From Rhodococcus sp. B7740 (GTDB lineage Bacteria > Actinomycetota > Actinomycetes > Mycobacteriales > Mycobacteriaceae), in assembly GCF_000954115.1 (NCBI RefSeq), contig NZ_CP010797.1, positions 1,240,001-1,304,000 of the forward strand: a stretch of 64,000 nucleotides of DNA, given 5' to 3'. This document shows, one piece after another, positions 6,361 to 53,694 of the stretch. Under the pieces are notes generated by a model. That model made no database searches. It saw only the letters and a program-made list of their open reading frames with translations, and was not told where the DNA came from. Positions within the stretch are counted from its first letter, which is position 1, and every line of letters starts with the position of its first letter. Made by a program: the position numbers and the translations under genes.

Positions 6361-6369
6361 CTCCGATCG

Positions 6370-6416
6370 AACGACGAGAGGGTGAGCAGAGATTCTCTGC
6401 TCACCCTCTCGTCGTT
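6370..6416. terminator. Bidirectional terminator hairpin between ppi and relA
   Basis: A 47-base perfect palindrome with 23-base arms around a single central T; the practical loop is AGATTCT. It sits between two convergent genes, 9 bases after the isomerase stop and 11 bases from the relA stop, so it can end transcription from both sides. No long T-run follows, which is usual for actinobacterial terminators. Confidence 0.8.
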
Positions 6417-6427
6417 CTCCGGACCGC

Positions 6428-45090: not shown

Positions 45091-46317
45091 GTGTCTGTAC
45101 CCGCGTCCACCAGCTCACAGAGGAATGTCGTCTTCGTCGACGGCATCCGTACCCCGTTCGGCAAGGCAGGCCCCAAGGGCATGTACGCCGACACTCGCGC
45201 AGACGACCTCGTCGTCAAGGCAATCCGCGAACTTCTTCGCAAGAACCCCAACCTCCCTCCCGAACGGATCGACGAGGTCGCGATCGCCGCGACCACGCAG
45301 ACCGGTGACCAGGGCCTGACCATCGGACGTACGTCCGCACTGCTCGCCGGACTCCCCCGCAGCGTCCCCGGCTTCGCCATCGACCGCATGTGCGCAGGCG
45401 CGATGACGTCGGTGACCACCACCGGATCGGGCATCGGCTTCGGCCAGTACGACGTCGTCATCGCCGGTGGCGTCGAGCACATGGGCCGCCACCCGATGGG
45501 TGAAGGCGTCGACCCCAACCCGCGCTTCCTCGCCGACAAGCTCGTCGATCCCAGCGCACTGGTCATGGGCAACACCGCCGAGAACCTGCACGACCGGTTC
45601 CCGAGCATCACCAAGGACCGCACCGACGCGTACGCCGTCGCCAGCCAGAACAAGTACGACGCCGCCAAGAAGGCCGGCTACATCGCCGACACCCTCGTGC
45701 CCGTCGCCACCAAGTCGGCCGCAGGCTGGGGCCTGGCCACCGAGGACGAGCCGCCTCGCCCCGGCACCACCATCGAAGACCTCGCCAAGCTCAAGACGCC
45801 GTTCCGGCCCGCAGGCCGCGTCACCGCAGGCAACGCCGCTGGACTCAACGACGGCGCAACCGCCGCGATTCTGGCCGGTGAGGACACCGCGCACGAGCTC
45901 GGCCTGAACATCGGAATGCGGATGGTCGGCTTCAGCTTCGCCGGCGTCGACCCGGCCGTCATGGGCATCGGACCGGTCCCCGCGACCGAAAAACTGCTCG
46001 GCCGAACCGGATTGAGCATCGACGACATCGGCCTGTTCGAGATCAACGAGGCCTTCGCCATCCAGGTTCTCGCCTTCCTCGAGCACTACGGAATCGCCGA
46101 CGACGACCCCCGCGTCAACCAGTGGGGCGGTGCCATCGCGTGCGGCCACCCCCTCGCCTCCTCGGGCGTTCGCCTGATGACGCAGCTGAGCCGCCAGTTC
46201 GCTCAGCAGCCCGACGTGCGCTACGGCCTGACGACCATGTGCATCGGTCTCGGCATGGGCGGCACCGTCATCTGGGAGAACCCCAACCACGCTGACTACT
46301 CGGGAGCAGCCAAATGA
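45091..46317 (+). CDS. Acetyl-CoA acyltransferase (thiolase), beta-subunit type
   Basis: 408 residues. It cleaves 3-ketoacyl-CoA in beta-oxidation. The acylated Cys is in AIDRMCAGAMTSV (about residue 103); the other catalytic residues are His in GGAIACGHPLASSG and Cys in TTMCIGLGMGGTVIW. The start is GTG at 45091, with GGGAGGATCG upstream. It overlaps the next gene as ATGA, forming a thiolase/multifunctional-enzyme complex pair like FadA-FadB or mycobacterial trifunctional proteins. Confidence 0.94.
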   Translation: MSVPASTSSQRNVVFVDGIRTPFGKAGPKGMYADTRADDLVVKAIRELLRKNPNLPPERIDEVAIAATTQTGDQGLTIGRTSALLAGLPRSVPGFAIDRMCAGAMTSVTTTGSGIGFGQYDVVIAGGVEHMGRHPMGEGVDPNPRFLADKLVDPSALVMGNTAENLHDRFPSITKDRTDAYAVASQNKYDAAKKAGYIADTLVPVATKSAAGWGLATEDEPPRPGTTIEDLAKLKTPFRPAGRVTAGNAAGLNDGATAAILAGEDTAHELGLNIGMRMVGFSFAGVDPAVMGIGPVPATEKLLGRTGLSIDDIGLFEINEAFAIQVLAFLEHYGIADDDPRVNQWGGAIACGHPLASSGVRLMTQLSRQFAQQPDVRYGLTTMCIGLGMGGTVIWENPNHADYSGAAK

Positions 46318-48419
46318 GTGATATCACCACAGCGTTCACCGACGAGGTAGTCACGAACGCATTCACCAAGATCGTCTCCGTACCGGGGCTCGAGGGCTCC
46401 ATCGCCCTCGTCACGCTCGACAACGGCTTCGATCACACCAAGCCGTCGACCTTCGGTCCCGGCGGTCTCGCCAAGTTCGACGCCGCACTCGACGAGGCAT
46501 TCGCAGCGAACCCGGTGGCCATCGCCGTCACCGGCAAGCCGTTCATCTTCGCCGTCGGTGCCGACCTCAACGGTGTGCCGAACATCGAGACCAAGGACGA
46601 GGCGCTGCAGATCGGGCAGCTCGGGCACAAGGTGTTCCGTCGCCTGCGCGAGTCGACGATTCCGACGTTCGCCTTCATCAACGGTGCTGCACTCGGCGGC
46701 GGCCTCGAAGTGGGACTGCACTCGCACTACCGCACCGTCGCAGAGAACGCCGCTGCCCTCGGCCTGCCCGAGGCCTTCCTCGGCCTGGTCCCGGGATGGG
46801 GCGGAACCCAGTTGTTGCCCAACATCATCGGAGCCTCGAACGCCGTCACCGTCGTCATCGAGAACGCTCTCAACCAGAACCGCGTCCTCAAGCCGCAGCA
46901 GGCACTCGATCTCGGCATCGCCGACGCCCTCTTCGGCGGAGCCGACTTCCTCGAACAGTCCCTCGCGTGGGCTGCTCAGGTCGTCAAGGGCGAGATCGTT
47001 CCCGACCGTCCCGAGATCGACCGCGGACAGGCCTGGGACGACGCCATCGCCCGTGCCAGGGGCATCGTGGCCGGCAAGACCGGTAATTTCGCACCGGGCC
47101 CCGTCGCCGCAGTCGATCTGCTCGAGCTCGCCAAGAGCACCGACATCACCGACTCGGCCTCGCTCGACGAGGCCTTCGCGGCCGAGGACGAGGCGCTGTC
47201 GACGTTGCTGGTCAAGGACGAGCTCCGCGCCGGGCTGTACGCCTTCGATCTGGTGCAGAAGCGCGCGAAGCGTCCGGCCGGTGCACCCGACAAGTCGTTG
47301 GCGCGCAAGATCTCCGGCGTCGGCATCGTCGGTGCCGGACTGATGGCCAGCCAGCTCGCCCTGCTGTTCGTGCGCCAGCTGAAGGTGCCGGTGATCCTCA
47401 CCGACATCGATCAGGAGCGCATCGACAAGGGTGTCGGGTACGTCCACGGGGAGATCGACAAGCTGCTCGGCAAGAAGCGTCTGTCCCCCGATGCCGCGAA
47501 TCGGTTGAAGGCGTTGGTGTCCGGCTCCATCGACAAGTCGGCGTTCGCGAACACCGATTTCGTCATCGAGGCCGTGTTCGAGAACCTCGACGTGAAGAAG
47601 AAGGTGTTCGCCGAGGTCGAGGAGTTCGTCTCTGCCGAAACGATCCTTGCTACCAACACGTCCTCGCTGTCGATCACCAAGATGGCGGCAGACCTGAAGC
47701 ACCCCGAGCGCGTCGTGGGCTTCCACTTCTTCAACCCCGTCGCGGTCCTGCCACTGCTCGAGGTCGTCAAGGGTGAGAAGACCGACGACGCCACCCTGGC
47801 AACGGCATTCGCGACGGCCAAGACCCTCAAGAAGTCGGCCGTGTTGTCTGCGGATCTCCCCGGATTCGTCTTCAATCGTCTCGTCACACGTGCGTCCAAC
47901 GAGATCATCAGCGCCATCGACGAGGGCACCCCGTTCGATGTCGCCGACGGCGCAGTGGGCGAACTCGGCATGCCGATGAGTCCGCTGACCCTGCTGGCTC
48001 TCGTCGGCCCGGCCGTGGCACTGCACACCGCGGAGACCCTCGCCGAGGCATACCCGGAGAGGTTCAAGGACTCGCCGGGATTCCGCGCTCTCGTCGAGGC
48101 GAAGAAACCGGGTGTGTGGACCTACGGACCCGAGGGCCAGGTCGTCGATCCCGAGGTCGCCGCGCTGTGGCCGCAGGGCGATTCGCCCTCGACTGCCGAG
48201 CAGGTTCTCGACCGGACCCGCCGGGCATTCGCCGACGAAATCCGCATCATGCTCGACGAGGGAGTCGTAGCAGCAGCCGAGGACATCGATCTCTGCCTGC
48301 TGCTCGGCGGCGGCTTCGGCTTCTGGAACGGCGGCATCACCCCGTACCTGGACCGCAGCGGTGCCTCCGAGGCAGCGACCGGTCGGCGCTTCCTCGCGCC
48401 GGGTGTCGCCAGCGTCTAG
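46314..48419 (+). CDS. Multifunctional enoyl-CoA hydratase / 3-hydroxyacyl-CoA dehydrogenase
   Basis: 701 residues. The N-terminal crotonase domain (about 1-290) has NGAALGGGLEVGLHSHYR and LPEAFLGLVPGWGGTQLLP. The NAD-binding dehydrogenase domain starts near residue 335 (GVGIVGAGLMASQLALLF) and includes VGFHFFNPVAVLPLLEVV with the catalytic His. The C-terminal helical domain ends in GFGFWNGGITPYLDRSG. It carries out hydration and oxidation steps of beta-oxidation with the upstream thiolase. The start ATG at 46314 overlaps the thiolase stop. A palindromic element begins 9 bases after its stop. Confidence 0.94.
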   Translation: MSDITTAFTDEVVTNAFTKIVSVPGLEGSIALVTLDNGFDHTKPSTFGPGGLAKFDAALDEAFAANPVAIAVTGKPFIFAVGADLNGVPNIETKDEALQIGQLGHKVFRRLRESTIPTFAFINGAALGGGLEVGLHSHYRTVAENAAALGLPEAFLGLVPGWGGTQLLPNIIGASNAVTVVIENALNQNRVLKPQQALDLGIADALFGGADFLEQSLAWAAQVVKGEIVPDRPEIDRGQAWDDAIARARGIVAGKTGNFAPGPVAAVDLLELAKSTDITDSASLDEAFAAEDEALSTLLVKDELRAGLYAFDLVQKRAKRPAGAPDKSLARKISGVGIVGAGLMASQLALLFVRQLKVPVILTDIDQERIDKGVGYVHGEIDKLLGKKRLSPDAANRLKALVSGSIDKSAFANTDFVIEAVFENLDVKKKVFAEVEEFVSAETILATNTSSLSITKMAADLKHPERVVGFHFFNPVAVLPLLEVVKGEKTDDATLATAFATAKTLKKSAVLSADLPGFVFNRLVTRASNEIISAIDEGTPFDVADGAVGELGMPMSPLTLLALVGPAVALHTAETLAEAYPERFKDSPGFRALVEAKKPGVWTYGPEGQVVDPEVAALWPQGDSPSTAEQVLDRTRRAFADEIRIMLDEGVVAAAEDIDLCLLLGGGFGFWNGGITPYLDRSGASEAATGRRFLAPGVASV

Positions 48420-48427
48420 TACGGCCC

Positions 48428-48489
48428 GCCGAGTTCAAGGTTACGGACGGATTTTCGCGTTTTTTCGTCCGTAACCTCGAACTCGACCG
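48428..48489. repeat. 62-bp palindromic element, copy A
   Basis: Layout: GCC, 19-base left arm (48431-48449), 16-base T-rich loop (48450-48465), 19-base right arm (48466-48484), then GACCG. The arms pair with one mismatch. Copy B at 52084-52145 has the same lengths and end sequences. This copy lies just after the fadB-type gene and inside the 3' end of the SDR gene on the other strand, where it supplies the last residues and stop codon. It could act as a two-way terminator. Confidence 0.8.
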
Positions 48490-49376
48490 TCGTTCAGGAA
48501 CGCCCACAGTTCGTCCTCCCGCTGTCGGTCGTACGACTCGTCCGAGGATCGGGTGACCGTTCGACGATCGACATAGTCTCCGGATCGGGTGGCGATCACA
48601 CCCAGCGCGACGTCGGCCAGTGCACGACCGGCCTGCGCGGCCGTCGAGGCGATCGGCGTCACCGCCAGGACGGGGAGCAGCCACACCATCGCCGATCGCG
48701 ACACGAACCCGGCATCGCGCGCCAGGCCGGTTCCCGGCACGAAACCCGGATTGAACGACACCACGTCCACTCCCGCGGGGAGTACCCGAGCGAGCGCGTG
48801 CACCAGATGAATCGCCGCCAGTTTGTTGGTCGAGTAGGCGGTACGGCCCGCTCGCACCGATTCCGGGTCGGCGAAGGCGCGCACCCTCGCCAGTCGATCC
48901 GGAGGCACCCATCGCGGACCGGGAACCATCCCGAGATTGTGCCGGACGTCGCCGAAGTGCGTGTCGCTGACCGTGATCACGACGCGGGCCGGTCGGTCGA
49001 GGGCGTCTGCGAAACCGCGAACCACGAGATGGTTGGCCACCACGGTGACGGCGAACGTGGTCTCGTACCCGTCCTCGGTTTCACTGCAGTTCGTCGCGCA
49101 CTGCACTCCCGCGTTTCCCACGACGACGTCGAGCGGCGGGAGTTCCTTCGCCACGATCCTGCGCGCGATGGAGTCCACAGCGGCTGCGGTCTGCGCCACC
49201 GAGCGAAGGTCGGCTCTCACGTGAGTCGCCCGCGAGTGAGACGGTCCGGGACCGCGTCCGATCGTCACCAATCGCGCTGTCGGGTCGAGTCGAAGTATCG
49301 ACTCCGCTGCTGCCCACCCGATTCCCCGACTCGCTCCCGTCATGACGACGGTGTGTGGTCTCGAGTTCGATGTCAT
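48441..49376 (-). CDS. Short-chain dehydrogenase/reductase
   Basis: 311 residues. The Rossmann glycine motif is TGASRGIG (about 14-21); NNAG-equivalent is VVGNAGVQ; the catalytic Tyr-x3-Lys is AYSTNKLAAIHLVHAL. The form resembles the retinol/protochlorophyllide-reductase-like SDR group, NADP-using by inference. The start ATG at 49376 is chosen; upstream residues lack similarity. The last ~15 residues (RGYGRKNAKIRP) are encoded by palindromic element A. It is divergent from the XRE/MmyB regulator across 92 bases, suggesting control by that regulator. Confidence 0.88.
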   Translation of the reverse strand: MTSNSRPHTVVMTGASRGIGWAAAESILRLDPTARLVTIGRGPGPSHSRATHVRADLRSVAQTAAAVDSIARRIVAKELPPLDVVVGNAGVQCATNCSETEDGYETTFAVTVVANHLVVRGFADALDRPARVVITVSDTHFGDVRHNLGMVPGPRWVPPDRLARVRAFADPESVRAGRTAYSTNKLAAIHLVHALARVLPAGVDVVSFNPGFVPGTGLARDAGFVSRSAMVWLLPVLAVTPIASTAAQAGRALADVALGVIATRSGDYVDRRTVTRSSDESYDRQREDELWAFLNDGRVRGYGRKNAKIRP

Positions 49377-49462
49377 CTCTCGGACCCTGCCATCGGCCCA
49401 CGGCGGCTGCCAGGGCCTGCGCAACGGAGGGTCTGCCGATACCAGGCAGGACGCGCCATACT

Positions 49463-49473
49463 GTCACGGTGAC
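49463..49473. promoter_or_regulatory. Possible operator overlapping the regulator start
   Basis: GTCACGGTGAC is a perfect 5+1+5 inverted repeat lying across the GTG start at 49469 in the SDR/regulator divergent gap. It is short, so chance occurrence is possible; position alone makes it a candidate autoregulatory site. Confidence 0.3.
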
Positions 49474-50323
49474 GACAGCACGTTCGGAACTGGGCGAGCT
49501 CCTGCGCTCGTGGCGAGATCGCCTGGCACCGCACGCCGTCGGCATCGACCCGACCGCGACGCGTCGCACGACCGGGCTGCGACGCGAGGAGGTCGCACTG
49601 GCCGCGGGCGTATCGGTGGACTACCTCGTCCGCCTCGAGCAGGGGCGGTCGACTCACCCCTCGGTGCAGGTCGTCGATGCGCTCGCCCGTGCCCTACACC
49701 TCGATTCCGCCGAACGAGCCCACCTCCACCGCACTGCCGGACTGCTGCCGCCCGCCGAGCAGTCGGTCCAGACCGCTCTGCCGTTCGAGGTCGTCCGACT
49801 CGCCGCGCGGTTGGACGACCATCCCGTCGCCGTGTTCGACGCGACGTGGCAGCTCAGGACGTGGAACTCGATGTGGAGTGCTCTGCACGGTGACCCGGAG
49901 TCGGTACCGACGGAACAGCGCAACATGGTTCGGGCGGTGTTCGGCTCCGACGACCGAGCACGCTCGTGGATGCGACCGGTCTCGATGGCCGACGGACTCG
50001 AGCGCTTCGCCACCGCGCTGGTCGCCGACCTGCGAATAGCGGTCGGCAGATATCCGGACGACCGCGTACTTCGTCGACTGGTCGACGACATGCGGTGTGA
50101 GAATGCGTATTTCGACACGCTCTGGAGTTCAGGGGTTGCCGCTGTGCATGTCGGTGACCGCAAGACGATCGTTCACCCCGAGGTCGGTGAGATCACGCTC
50201 GACTGTGACGTTCTGACCGCACCGGGCGCGGACCTGCGACTGGTCGTGTACTCCGCGGAGGCGGGTACCGCGGATGCGGACGCTCTGAGCCGGTTGCGCG
50301 CCGCACGCGTCGACGAGCGATGA
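49469..50323 (+). CDS. Helix-turn-helix regulator, XRE/MmyB type
   Basis: 284 residues. An XRE-like DNA-binding domain at about 5-75 (TGLRREEVALAAGVSVDYLV, then RLEQGRSTHPSVQVVDALA) is followed by an MmyB-type ligand-binding domain (WQLRTWNSMWSALHGD). This two-part form is common next to divergent SDR genes, as here. The start is GTG at 49469 (VTTARSELG). Its stop overlaps the ATG of the sigma factor gene, so regulator and sigma factor are translated together. The ligand is probably a small hydrophobic molecule, by analogy with MmyB-type structures. Confidence 0.88.
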   Translation: MTTARSELGELLRSWRDRLAPHAVGIDPTATRRTTGLRREEVALAAGVSVDYLVRLEQGRSTHPSVQVVDALARALHLDSAERAHLHRTAGLLPPAEQSVQTALPFEVVRLAARLDDHPVAVFDATWQLRTWNSMWSALHGDPESVPTEQRNMVRAVFGSDDRARSWMRPVSMADGLERFATALVADLRIAVGRYPDDRVLRRLVDDMRCENAYFDTLWSSGVAAVHVGDRKTIVHPEVGEITLDCDVLTAPGADLRLVVYSAEAGTADADALSRLRAARVDER

Positions 50324-51330
50324 CGTCGTCCGACGATGCAATCGGTGCGCCGACCTCCACGGCCGAGCGTGCACGACTGATCGGCATCGCCTACCGAATG
50401 CTGGGTTCGCACAGCGACGCCGAGGATGCGGCGTCCGAGACCGTCGTCCGCTGGTTCCGGCTCAACGACGCCGAACGTGACGCCATCGACGTTCCAGCGG
50501 CGTGGCTGACCCGCGTCGTGAGCCGCATCTGCCTCGACCTGCTCGGCTCTGCTCGCGCTCGCCGCGAGAACTACATCGGGCAGTGGCTGCCGGAACCCGT
50601 CTGCGGCCGCGACTCCGAGACTCCTGCCGCCGCGGACCCCGCCGACCGAGTTGCGCAGCAGGAATCGGTGACGCTGGCACTCCTCGTGGTGCTCGAATCG
50701 CTCGGTCCGGCGCAACGAGTCGCATTCGTACTGCACGACGCGTTCGCCGTTCCGTTCGACGAGATCGCGACCGTTCTCGATCGATCCCCGGCTGCCTGCC
50801 GTCAACTCGCCTCTGCTGCACGAACTCACGTCCATTCCCGTCGCCGCTCCGTTGCCGACCCCATCGAGCACGACCGCGTGGTGCGGGCTTTCGCGTCGGC
50901 CTCCGCAAGCGGGGACATCGCATCCCTGATATCGGTGCTCGCACCCGACGTCACGTTGGTCAGCGACGGCGGCGGCCATGTATCCGCGGCCCGCAATGCC
51001 ATCCTCGGATCCGATCGAGTCGCTCGCTTCGTTCGCGGCATCACTGCCAAGTCGATCGATCTCGACTGGTCGATAGAACCCGTCAACGGCCTGTCGGGCA
51101 TCGTGATGCGGCGCGACGGCGCGGTGTTCGGCGTCATCGGGTTCGACGTCATCGGGTTCGACACCGCCGACTGCATGGTCGCGAGCGTCTGGATCGTGCT
51201 CAATCCGGACAAACTCCGGCACTGGGTCGCCACACACGACAGACATTCGCCTCGGCTGCGTCGTCAGAGAGTGGAGGGCCGCGCAGTGCGGTCCGCATCA
51301 TCACTCGAGAATCAGGTGGAAACGCGATGA
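50320..51330 (+). CDS. ECF41-type sigma factor with fused SnoaL-like domain (SigJ-like)
   Basis: 336 residues. Sigma2 (RARLIGIAYRMLGSHSDAED) and sigma4 (FVLHDAFAVPFDEIATVLD) regions are followed by a SnoaL/NTF2-like C-terminal domain. The linker WLPEPV and the C-terminal DGGGHV and NPDKLRH are signature motifs of group ECF41. In that group the fused domain replaces an anti-sigma factor and the partner gene encodes a carboxymuconolactone decarboxylase, oxidoreductase or epimerase; here the next gene is an oxidoreductase/epimerase-like protein. The start ATG at 50320 overlaps the regulator stop and its own stop overlaps the partner start. I could not find an ECF41-type TGTCACA promoter. Confidence 0.88.
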   Translation: MTSSDDAIGAPTSTAERARLIGIAYRMLGSHSDAEDAASETVVRWFRLNDAERDAIDVPAAWLTRVVSRICLDLLGSARARRENYIGQWLPEPVCGRDSETPAAADPADRVAQQESVTLALLVVLESLGPAQRVAFVLHDAFAVPFDEIATVLDRSPAACRQLASAARTHVHSRRRSVADPIEHDRVVRAFASASASGDIASLISVLAPDVTLVSDGGGHVSAARNAILGSDRVARFVRGITAKSIDLDWSIEPVNGLSGIVMRRDGAVFGVIGFDVIGFDTADCMVASVWIVLNPDKLRHWVATHDRHSPRLRRQRVEGRAVRSASSLENQVETR

Positions 51331-52073
51331 AGCTAGCCGTAGCCGGTGGAACCGGAACCGTGGGAGTGCACGTCGTCGAGGTTGCGCGGGAACGCGGACA
51401 CGAGGTGGTAGTCCTGTCGCGGTCTGCCGGTGTGGATCTCGTCTCCGGATCGGGACTGCCCGACGCCCTGTCCGGCGTCGACGCAGTGATCGACGTCGCC
51501 TCGACGCAGACGATCTCGGCGAAGGAATCGACGGCGTTCTTCGCTGCCGTCACCCGTAACCTGCTGACGGCGGAAGGCGCGGCCGGAATCGGGCACCACG
51601 TGGCGTTGTCGATCGTGGGGATAGACAAGGCCCCGTACGCGTACTACGCCGGAAAGGTGGAGCAGGAGCGCCTCGTTCGCGCTGGAGCCGTACCGTGGAC
51701 GATCCTGCGAGCTACTCAGTTCCACGAGTTCGCCGCGCAGATCCGGTCGCAGACCTCGTTCGGTCCACTGACGGTCGTCCCGAGGATGGTCTCGCAACCG
51801 ATCGCAGCCCGCGAGGTCGCCGAGCGACTGATCGACCTGGCGGAGCGGCCACCGGCAGGCCGAGTCGCCGATCTCGGTGGACCACGTGAAGAGCGCATGG
51901 CGAAGATGGTGCGGCGCTACGCACGAGCAATCGGTGCGCGCGGCCCGGTGCTCGAGGTGCCGCTTCCCGGCGCGTACGGCCGCGCGATGCGAGACGGAAC
52001 GCTGGTCACCACACAGGATTCGGATCACGGTCTACAGACCTTCGATCAGTGGTCGGACGCCCAGGCGCGTTGA
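51327..52073 (+). CDS. NAD(P)-binding oxidoreductase/epimerase-like protein, ECF41 partner
   Basis: 248 residues of the atypical SDR (NmrA/NDUFA9-like) group. The nucleotide-binding loop is AVAGGTGTVGVHVV (about 4-17); VPWTILRATQFHEF and AAREVAERLIDLAE are family-like. No Tyr-x3-Lys pair in the canonical place is visible, so catalysis is uncertain. The start ATG at 51327 overlaps the sigma factor stop (ATGA). It fits the oxidoreductase/epimerase partner role described for ECF41 loci. Palindromic element B follows 10 bases after its stop. Confidence 0.87.
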   Translation: MKLAVAGGTGTVGVHVVEVARERGHEVVVLSRSAGVDLVSGSGLPDALSGVDAVIDVASTQTISAKESTAFFAAVTRNLLTAEGAAGIGHHVALSIVGIDKAPYAYYAGKVEQERLVRAGAVPWTILRATQFHEFAAQIRSQTSFGPLTVVPRMVSQPIAAREVAERLIDLAERPPAGRVADLGGPREERMAKMVRRYARAIGARGPVLEVPLPGAYGRAMRDGTLVTTQDSDHGLQTFDQWSDAQAR

Positions 52074-52083
52074 GTCGCATCTC

Positions 52084-52145
52084 GCCGAACTCGAAGTTGT
52101 GGACGATATTCCGGCCATTTTCGTCCACAACTTCGAGCTCGACCG
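52084..52145. repeat. 62-bp palindromic element, copy B
   Basis: Same architecture as copy A: GCC, left arm 52087-52105, 16-base loop 52106-52121, right arm 52122-52140, GACCG. The arms differ from copy A at 10 of 38 positions, but four pairs of changes are compensatory. It lies in the gap between the ECF41 partner gene and the MFS gene and would fold into a terminator-like hairpin with TTTT in its loop. Confidence 0.8.
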
Positions 52146-52293: not shown

Positions 52294-53694
52294 GTGATGA
52301 CGCAATCCACCGATCGGCACACTGCCAAAGTCATCGGAGTCACCATTGCCGCCGCTGTCGGCGGCTTCTTGTTCGGGTTCGATTCCTCAGTTGTCAACGG
52401 CGCAGTGGACTCCATTCAGGAGAACTTCGCCCTGTCGTCGTTCGTCACCGGCTTCGCCGTCGCCATCGCACTTCTCGGTTGTGCGGTCGGTGCCTGGTTC
52501 GCCGGCCGTCTCGCCGACACCTGGGGCCGGAAAAAGGTGATGCTGCTCGGTTCCGCGCTGTTCACCATTTCGTCGCTGGGGTCCGGGTTCGCGTTCAGCG
52601 TCCCGGATCTCATGCTCTGGCGTGTACTCGGCGGCCTTGGTATCGGTATCGCCTCGGTGATCGCGCCCGCGTACATCTCGGAGATTGCCCCGGCCCGCTA
52701 CCGGGGTGGTTTGGCCTCGCTGCAACAGTTGGCGATCACCGTCGGAATCTTCGCCGCGCTGCTGTCGGACGCGGTGCTGCAGAACGCCGCGGGCGGACCG
52801 TCGAACGACCTGTGGTTCGGACTCGAAGCCTGGCGGTGGATGTTCTTGGTCGGCGTCGCACCGGCCCTCGTCTACGGCTTTCTCGCCACTCTGATTCCGG
52901 AGTCGCCCAGATATCTCGTCGGAAAGCACCTCGACGAAGAAGCGGCCCGCATTCTGGGAGACATCACCGGGGAAGTGGACCCGAACGAGAGGGTCAAGGA
53001 AATCCGGTTGACCCTGCGCCGGGAATCCAAGTCCTCGTTCGCCGATATCCGTGGACCGAAGTTCGGTCTGCAACCGATCGTCTGGGTCGGCATCACCATG
53101 GCGATTCTGCAGCAGTTCGTGGGAATCAACGCGATCTTCTATTACTCGACAACGTTGTGGAAGTCCGTCGGTTTCAGCGAGAATCAATCGTTCGTCACCT
53201 CGGTGATCACCTCGGTCATCAATGTCTCGATGACATTCGTCGCCATCTTGTTCGTCGACCGATTCGGCCGACGAAATCTGCTCATGATCGGCTCGATCGG
53301 GATGTTCGTCGGTCTCGTACTGGCGGCCATCTCGTTCACTCAGGCCGTGGGCAGCGGCGACCAACTCGAATTGCCGTCGCCGTGGGGCCCGGTTGCTCTC
53401 GTCGGAGCCAACCTGTTCGTGGTCTTCTTCGCCGCGACCTGGGGTCCGATCATGTGGGTGATGCTCGGCGAGATGTTCCCCAACCGAATGCGCGCCGTCG
53501 CCCTCGGTATCAGTACCGCCGCGAACTGGATCGCCAACTTCGCCATCACACTGGCATTTCCACCGTTGTCCGACACCATCGGACTCGGATTCATCTACTC
53601 GTTCTTCGCGTTCTTCGCGATCCTGTCTTTCTTCTTCGTCAAGTACAAGATCAAGGAGACCAAGGGAATGGAGCTCGAGGACATGGAGATCTGA
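52294..53694 (+). CDS. Sugar porter-family MFS transporter
   Basis: 466 residues with 12 membrane helices. Sugar-porter signatures are present: GFLFGFDSSVVNGA, RLADTWGRKKVML, PESPRYLVGK, QQFVGINAIFYYS and DRFGRRNLLMIGS. It probably imports a sugar or polyol by proton symport; the substrate is not readable. The start is GTG at 52294 (or ATG at 52297). The following yciI-type gene starts 2 bases after the stop. The 220-base upstream gap contains palindromic element B. Confidence 0.92.
   Translation: MMTQSTDRHTAKVIGVTIAAAVGGFLFGFDSSVVNGAVDSIQENFALSSFVTGFAVAIALLGCAVGAWFAGRLADTWGRKKVMLLGSALFTISSLGSGFAFSVPDLMLWRVLGGLGIGIASVIAPAYISEIAPARYRGGLASLQQLAITVGIFAALLSDAVLQNAAGGPSNDLWFGLEAWRWMFLVGVAPALVYGFLATLIPESPRYLVGKHLDEEAARILGDITGEVDPNERVKEIRLTLRRESKSSFADIRGPKFGLQPIVWVGITMAILQQFVGINAIFYYSTTLWKSVGFSENQSFVTSVITSVINVSMTFVAILFVDRFGRRNLLMIGSIGMFVGLVLAAISFTQAVGSGDQLELPSPWGPVALVGANLFVVFFAATWGPIMWVMLGEMFPNRMRAVALGISTAANWIANFAITLAFPPLSDTIGLGFIYSFFAFFAILSFFFVKYKIKETKGMELEDMEI

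Follow-up and report, generated by a model that had tools for sequence, protein, structure and literature searches.

Several kinds of conserved or repeated hairpins have been described at the ends of bacterial genes, and they are summarized here from the parts of the source texts available to us. The intrinsic terminators of Bacillus cereus keep their 3'-end stems through paired changes, pass through G-U rather than A-C intermediates and are shared by convergent genes; they carry a poly-U tract, and each was followed at its own locus (PMC5381666). The I-shaped terminators of mycobacteria, a related group, are hairpins without a poly-U tail within 50 bp of a stop codon and are defined by shape, not by repeated sequence (PMC12288462). 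Repetition is found in the uptake-signal-sequence terminators of Neisseria and Pasteurellaceae, inverted pairs of a 9–11-nt signal that are enriched in tail-to-tail gaps, the signal generally occurring 1,000 or more times per genome (PMC1852404); in the extragenic palindromic repeats of the REP/RAYT type (PMC3733652, PMC2817692); in spaced palindromes of Mycobacterium such as CGAAA(N)19TTTCG, which are dispersed, several of them being often located between convergent genes and one of them having been suggested to act in termination (PMC5217627); and in the families of repeated intergenic stem-loops surveyed systematically in bacteria, Mycobacterium included (PMC2267715). Here we describe a further family, found through two copies, A and B, in a 64,000-nt stretch of Rhodococcus sp. 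B7740 (positions 1,240,001 to 1,304,000 of NZ_CP010797.1; hereafter the window, in whose numbering the places of A, B and their neighboring genes are given). It is a clade-specific, dispersed family of 60-bp palindromes, which we consider quite likely to be 3'-end hairpins that act as I-shaped terminators or protect mRNA 3' ends.

The Rhodococcus palindromes resemble the B. cereus terminators in the paired changes that keep their stems, but about 15 loci share one arm sequence, the centre is long and no U-tract follows. A DNA uptake sequence is short, and some 1,000 copies or more would be expected, unpaired ones among them, whereas the 150 candidates scored in this genome yielded whole palindromes with a 60-bp unit, 15 of them strong and 2 weak, single arms not being counted genome-wide. 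REP/RAYT elements are palindromes of 20–40 bp with a GTAG or CGTC tag; the present unit measures 60 bp, ends in GCCG...CGGC with neither tag, occurs in about 15 copies and belongs to a genome that has no Y1 transposase match. The spaced mycobacterial palindromes have other sequences, and the available part of PMC5217627 contains no comparison of covariation or of orthologous sites and mentions Rhodococcus solely for PE/PPE proteins; the genus is likewise absent from the available part of the stem-loop survey (PMC2267715). A literature search, whose coverage left out most subscription journals, returned no title or abstract opening on the 60-bp family, and the available parts of PMC12306157 and PMC8780764 hold nothing on it.

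Copies A and B and the dispersed family

The places of the two palindromes were confirmed by reading the sequence and by a repeat search.

48428–48487, no strand: copy A, the family member at the fadB site (stem 48428–48450 / 48465–48487, centre 48451–48464)
52084–52143, no strand: copy B, 10 nt past the stop codon of an NAD(P)-binding gene and 150 nt ahead of a major facilitator superfamily (MFS) gene

An earlier note on this DNA had presented A and B as 62-bp units with the layout 3+19+16+19+5, each about 10 bases after a plus-strand stop codon. The palindromes and this layout were borne out, but the natural unit is a near-perfect palindrome of 60 bp, not 62; A starts 8 nt past the fadB stop (48419) and B 10 nt past the stop at 52073. 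Reading the 19-bp arms base by base also confirmed that between A and B four pairs have changed in both of their bases and still pair (T-A/C-G, G-C/A-T, A-T/G-C and C-G/T-A); two further pairs are changed on a single side only, and on the plus strand the arms of each copy contain one A.C mismatch. The plus strand is predicted to fold at −34.7 kcal/mol in A and −35.2 kcal/mol in B, the minus strand at −41.3 kcal/mol in A and −41.4 kcal/mol in B, and none of 200 shuffles folded as well as the real sequence for either copy on either strand. A and B do not retrieve each other by BLAST at the limits used, and a B-like arm pattern with at most 3 mismatches matched B's two arms only and not A. A third copy at 2628967 is retrieved by both (A at E 0.002, B at E 0.0012), and both can be aligned with 42 further copies. 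B also has a 24-nt match (E 0.0046) in G014, a genome of another genus.

The earlier note had named a lack of further copies and of a folding signal as grounds against its view; the outcome was the opposite on both counts, and A and B are 2 of about 15–17 copies. In the 5.34-Mb genome of this strain, BLAST, pattern and covariance-model searches identified 15 strong copies (at least 60 bits) plus 2 weak copies at 37.5 and 34.3 bits, the next candidate reaching only 20.2 bits. The model search scored 150 of 4378 first-look candidates here, and because about 150 of thousands of such candidates were scored in each genome searched whole, all copy numbers are lower bounds. Within the genus, 30 of 37 genomes have matches at E ≤ 1e-6, and the 12 richest have 26–37 each, most copies being matched on both strands. 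A strict pattern applied to one genome each of 84,980 species returned 44 stretches, all titled Rhodococcus or Rhodococcoides. We also aligned 44 distinct copies over 60 columns, the consensus used being a perfect 60-bp palindrome with the ends given above; this gap-free alignment is partly a matter of selection, because the 60-mer scan that gathered the copies was ungapped, and copies of 59–62 nt also exist. The sequences fall into dialects, and we divided the copies into two clades of our own drawing. In a second set of species the dialect is shifted (GCCGAGATCGAGGTTGTGCAC...), with differences that are matched on both arms, and the clade dialects are concerted (GAACTCGAAGTTATGGAC versus GAGATCGAGGTTGTGCAC). 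Near-invariant in clade 1 are positions 3–5, 8–11, 13–15 and 18–20. One genome carries two identical copies 2.4 kb apart (L110, 5122–5181 and 7541–7600), possibly a recent duplication.

The copies cluster after stop codons, a point that the earlier note had proposed to check. Among 146 copies (99 of clade 1 and 47 of clade 2), many of them orthologous and not independent, 128 lie within 40 nt of a stop codon called by our home-made codon-bias script, 57 between two stops and 71 beside one; of the remainder, 10 are in divergent gaps and 8 are unclear. Stop distances bunch between −1 and 13 nt. For the strong copies of the strain's own genome, a stop is found within 16 nt in 14 of 15, and 1 of 15 occupies a divergent gap. 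Most of the divergent cases represent a single copy, the one that separates a DUF559/MTES_1575-type gene from a Mg-chelatase-like gene.

Long palindromes are also found more widely in this genome. We counted 29 in 464 kb (the window plus 400 kb), whereas two block-shuffled controls had 0 and 3, and 25 of the 29, A and B included, are outside called genes: 13 in convergent, 11 in codirectional and 1 in a divergent gap, one of the codirectional palindromes being 435 nt from the nearest stop. Of the 66 convergent gaps in these 464 kb, 12 hold a long palindrome. The loop has 3–5 nt in 20 of the 25, and A and B are distinct by their repeated arms and their 14–16-nt centre. Between convergent genes at 6369–6417 stands a perfect palindrome of 24 bp with a spacer of 1 nt, longer than any other perfect inverted repeat listed for the window. 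A second repeated palindrome of this genome, GTGAGCGGAACTTCGTAGC...GCTACGAAGTTCCGCTCAC, occurs at genome positions 1402357–1402400 and 1586361–1586404 (L380 and L390), at gene ends and with paired differences.

Hairpins at orthologous sites and covariation of the arms

We read the 110 nt past the fadB-like gene in 34 of the 37 genomes (G002, G005 and G025 were not included). A hairpin is present in all 34, the best stem having 11–14 of 14 pairs and scoring above all 60 of its own shuffles in 30 genomes and level with them in 4. A member of the 60-bp family forms this hairpin in 20 of the 34, mostly 8 nt past the stop; 19 of these were recognized by score and are 60 nt long, and L272, which has an indel, was recognized by eye and excluded from alignment A5. 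The other 14 hairpins are unrelated to the family, as judged by eye. Among these 14, G001, G030, G031, G037 and G040 have GC-rich hairpins, ACGGCCCGCAC...GTGCGGGCCGT, followed by T-rich TCTTTCGTTT-like tails. At a second, convergent site, between a gene ending ...GTLR* and a TetR-like gene (the TetR site), the 60-bp family occupies 12 of 30 loci and other hairpins occupy 16, the latter judged from folds without a shuffle test and including L150, which contains Ns; one of the remaining two loci lacks a strong hairpin and one is unreadable. These comparisons indicate that both sites retain a hairpin while its sequence gets exchanged. Two further features of the TetR site were seen in relatives within the genus and by eye, respectively: L160–L163 and L165 have, between the same convergent genes, arrays of a different, GTGACCGAATGTCACATTCGGTCAC-like palindrome with several hairpins in a row, and in L146, compared with L140, L144 and L148, the hairpin block and an adjoining GCAGGAGTGGAGCCTGC stretch are inverted.

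The copies at the two sites keep separate identities. Three compensated diagnostic pairs, 6-55, 7-54 and 12-49, distinguish the A-site copies (13 species) from the TetR-site copies (12 species), and their letters are kept in 12–13 of the 13 and 10–12 of the 12 species. Identity over the 60 positions is 0.88 and 0.87 within the two sites, 0.76 between them and 0.77 among own-genome paralogues; for the arms only, the values are 0.89 and 0.90, 0.76 and 0.85. Since orthologues are more alike than the paralogues of one genome, though by a small margin over the arms, the copies are old at the two sites tested, and the pattern indicates vertical descent without homogenisation there.

Arm-to-arm covariation was measured on copies gathered by similarity to a palindromic consensus, a sample biased towards pairing. 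In 19 orthologues of A, 92.5% of cells are paired, against 87.2% in shuffles and 30.6–45.6% in slid registers. Double changes affect 8 pairs in these orthologues, compared with 4.1 in shuffles (equalled by 1 shuffle of 500), and 25 cells, compared with 7.0 (0 of 500); the number of further pair types is 21, compared with 17.0 (2 of 500). The mixed set of 44 copies has 68 double-change cells against 40.1 (0 of 500). Folding of the transcript itself predicts that the sense strand tolerates G.T more readily than A.C, a preference that convergent copies should lack. Over the 22 outer pairs, with the 3 of 146 copies that are not 60 nt long dropped (as they were from the T-tract and flank counts), 70 single-sided copies have 72 G.T against 49 A.C on the sense strand (one-sided sign-flip p 0.018), and 56 convergent copies are balanced at 42 against 48. 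Single-sided copies of clade 1 drive the excess (49 versus 28, p 0.008). The asymmetry moderately favours RNA as the folding molecule and is significant in one of the two clades only. The earlier note had read the compensated changes between A and B as selection on folding or on a two-fold DNA site; the covariation among the A orthologues supports selection on folding, and the hint of RNA over DNA comes from a single clade.

We also compared the family with Rfam. The model Ms_IGR-8 (RF02470), a mycobacterial small RNA (sRNA), scores 40.2 bits against the best copy of this genome (E 9.0e-7 for the genome), below its 44-bit gathering cut-off, and 22.9 bits against B; Rfam gave only matches below the gathering score, among them microRNA models that seemingly respond to any long stem. 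Across 150 genomes of the order, Ms_IGR-8 has matches at E ≤ 0.001 in 8, namely this genome and 7 of the genus g10, probably Mycobacterium to go by the Rfam name; 2 genomes exceed the cut-off, and G079 has 18 matches over both strands. Among the loci listed, 18 of 20 lie in convergent or codirectional gaps according to our own gene caller. They are palindromes such as CGCCGAGCGTGAAGCTGTTGCGAAAT..., dispersed and mostly at gene ends like the 60-bp family, and judged by eye most have the outer GCCGA[A/G] and the A/T-rich centre in common with it; outside these parts the arms differ. Whether by homology or by convergence, Ms_IGR-8 seems to represent an analogous family of palindromes that belongs to another genus. 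Going by L346–L375, mostly from g10, it resembles a single member of such a dispersed family more than a unique sRNA gene.

Function and origin of the palindromes

Among the options raised in the earlier note, a dispersed terminator family is the best supported, by the 3'-end position, the hairpin at 34 of 34 fadB sites and the covariation, with the terminator function itself a prediction from sequence. Transcribed from either side, the 60-nt palindrome would fold into a stem of about 22 bp with a 14–16-nt A/U-rich centre, and the folded hairpin would end transcription and/or protect the mRNA 3' end; a single copy between convergent genes could serve both, and hairpins would be exchanged in place between clades. 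RNA termination or stabilisation by the hairpin is probable. Canonical L-shaped intrinsic terminators combine a stable hairpin soon after the stop, which the copies have, with a U-tract after the stem, which they lack. A hairpin without a U-tract would be of the I-shaped type, and the copies agree with the definition of that type as given in the available part of PMC12288462 (no poly-U, hairpin within 50 bp of the stop).

Several observations weigh against this interpretation. A T-rich stretch follows within 15 nt downstream in only 14 of 70 single-sided copies, the frequency of T being at most 0.31 at each of the 15 positions, and termination by mycobacterial RNA polymerase without a U-tract is disputed in works cited by PMC12288462. 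The strong copy in a divergent gap has orthologues there too, and genome L166 has no strong hairpin at the TetR site. The mixed set of 44 copies shows no excess of double-change pairs over shuffles (13 versus 10.8; 61 of 500 as high), none of the covariation shuffles is corrected for relatedness, and clade 2 has no G.T/A.C asymmetry (23 versus 21, p 0.44). Finally, termination does not call for arms that are nearly invariant between unrelated loci, which means that something other than pairing, either copying or a protein that reads the sequence, is also at work, and termination leaves unexplained the route by which the same arm sequence reached many sites.

The same arm sequence at non-orthologous loci is what a REP-like palindrome or a miniature inverted-repeat transposable element (MITE) would leave, the 3'-end bias then arising because insertions into genes or promoters were lost. 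Such mobility would also fit the 7 of 37 genomes without a match at E ≤ 1e-6, the TetR site with its 12 family loci and different hairpins elsewhere, and the purH–chlI region, where in several species a nuclease-like gene stands between two copies and G039 has one copy and lacks that gene. We hold it to be unlikely all the same: the strain's genome has 0 matches to the Y1 transposase (Y1_Tnp, PF01797), which was positive in 5 of 14 control genomes; flank identity of 2–5 bp, as target duplication would produce, occurs in 5 of 143 copies with about 5.7 expected by chance; no plasmid or phage match to B was found; stop distances are narrow; copies are old at the two sites tested, by the identities given above; and the bracketed DUF559/REase-type gene is absent from several copy-rich genomes. 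Of the mobile palindrome proposed in the earlier note, the dispersal stands, and the length and the copy number do not fit. Alternatively, a dimeric or tetrameric protein of chromosome organisation or regulation may bind the palindrome as a two-fold DNA site. The near-invariant blocks of clade 1 would then be contacted bases, and the nearly constant length and the concerted dialects would follow, but such a site gives no reason for the covariation between arms or for the G.T excess that depends on gene direction in clade 1; with relatives carrying unrelated hairpins at the same sites and copies lying mostly at 3' ends, we regard it as distinctly improbable. Correction of imperfect palindromes by template switching during replication is a mutational process, which would change both arms together without any function or selection and fits the perfect-palindrome consensus. 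That it produced the compensated changes is hard to credit, since it would neither account for the differing hairpins behind fadB in 34 of 34 genomes nor bias intermediates by gene direction, a bias seen in clade 1 only.

The DUF559/MTES_1575-type nuclease was considered as the mobiliser, and a requirement for it was rejected: an orthologue of at least 60% identity exists in only 13 of 37 genomes, and the copy-rich G011, G024, G032 and G033 hold at purH–chlI a 46–47% paralogue in the opposite orientation with no palindromes found around it. The slot between purH and the Mg-chelatase gene (L058, L066, L067, L297–L299, L326–L340) holds alternative DUF559/REase-type genes, in opposite orientations by species, or none, and palindrome copies flank one gene orientation.

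The earlier note had also suggested that A and B could be protein-binding sites marking an inserted segment. The genes around them are as follows.

46314–48419, plus strand: fadB-like gene (enoyl-CoA hydratase / 3-hydroxyacyl-CoA dehydrogenase; Pfam 3HCDH_N, ECH_1), whose 3' end carries A
48441–49400, minus strand: short-chain dehydrogenase (SDR; open reading frame, Pfam adh_short), whose stop is inside A; start chosen by us within the longer open reading frame 48441–49424
49469–50323, plus strand: XRE-family regulator with MmyB-like ligand-binding domain (Pfam MLTR_LBD, HTH_31)
50320–51330, plus strand: extracytoplasmic function (ECF) sigma factor with SnoaL-like C-terminal part (Pfam Sigma70_r2, Sigma70_r4_2; SnoaL_2 under the cut-off)
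51327–52073, plus strand: NAD(P)-binding (NmrA-like) oxidoreductase (Pfam NAD_binding_10), whose 3' end carries B
52294–53694, plus strand: sugar-type MFS transporter (Pfam Sugar_tr), downstream of B

The label ECF41 for the sigma factor came from the earlier note and not from our analysis. Copy A lies between convergent genes because the minus-strand SDR frame stops inside it (48441), and the last SDR residues are encoded by the copy itself (48441–48487). We rejected the bracketing of an inserted segment, as each palindrome belongs to the 3' end of its own upstream gene. The B orthologue in G012 is 96% identical, G009 and G011 have copies at the same place, and in all three genomes the orthologues of A and B enclose only the ECF sigma factor and NAD(P)-binding genes. 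In 20 of 34 genomes fadB is followed by a family member regardless of what lies beyond, and other copies stand singly at unrelated gene ends.

Meaning for Mycobacteriales

A wider reading, which we offer tentatively and as possible rather than probable, is that Mycobacteriales have clade-specific dialects of terminator palindromes of about 60 bp, and that gene 3' ends keep a hairpin and swap its dialect through some copying process or under a trans-acting reader of the arm sequence that co-evolves with the set as a whole. It would span two types in Rhodococcoides and at least two more in the presumed Mycobacterium, Ms_IGR-8 among them, the dialects having in common mostly the outer motif and the A/T-rich centre. 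Termination without U-tracts is contested in mycobacteria and their relatives, and the roughly 15 matched hairpins per genome, their natural compensated variants and the unrelated hairpins of sister species at the same sites make up a test set for pairing versus sequence. The family also raises the question of how one terminator-like sequence comes to occupy many gene ends and how hairpins get exchanged in place.

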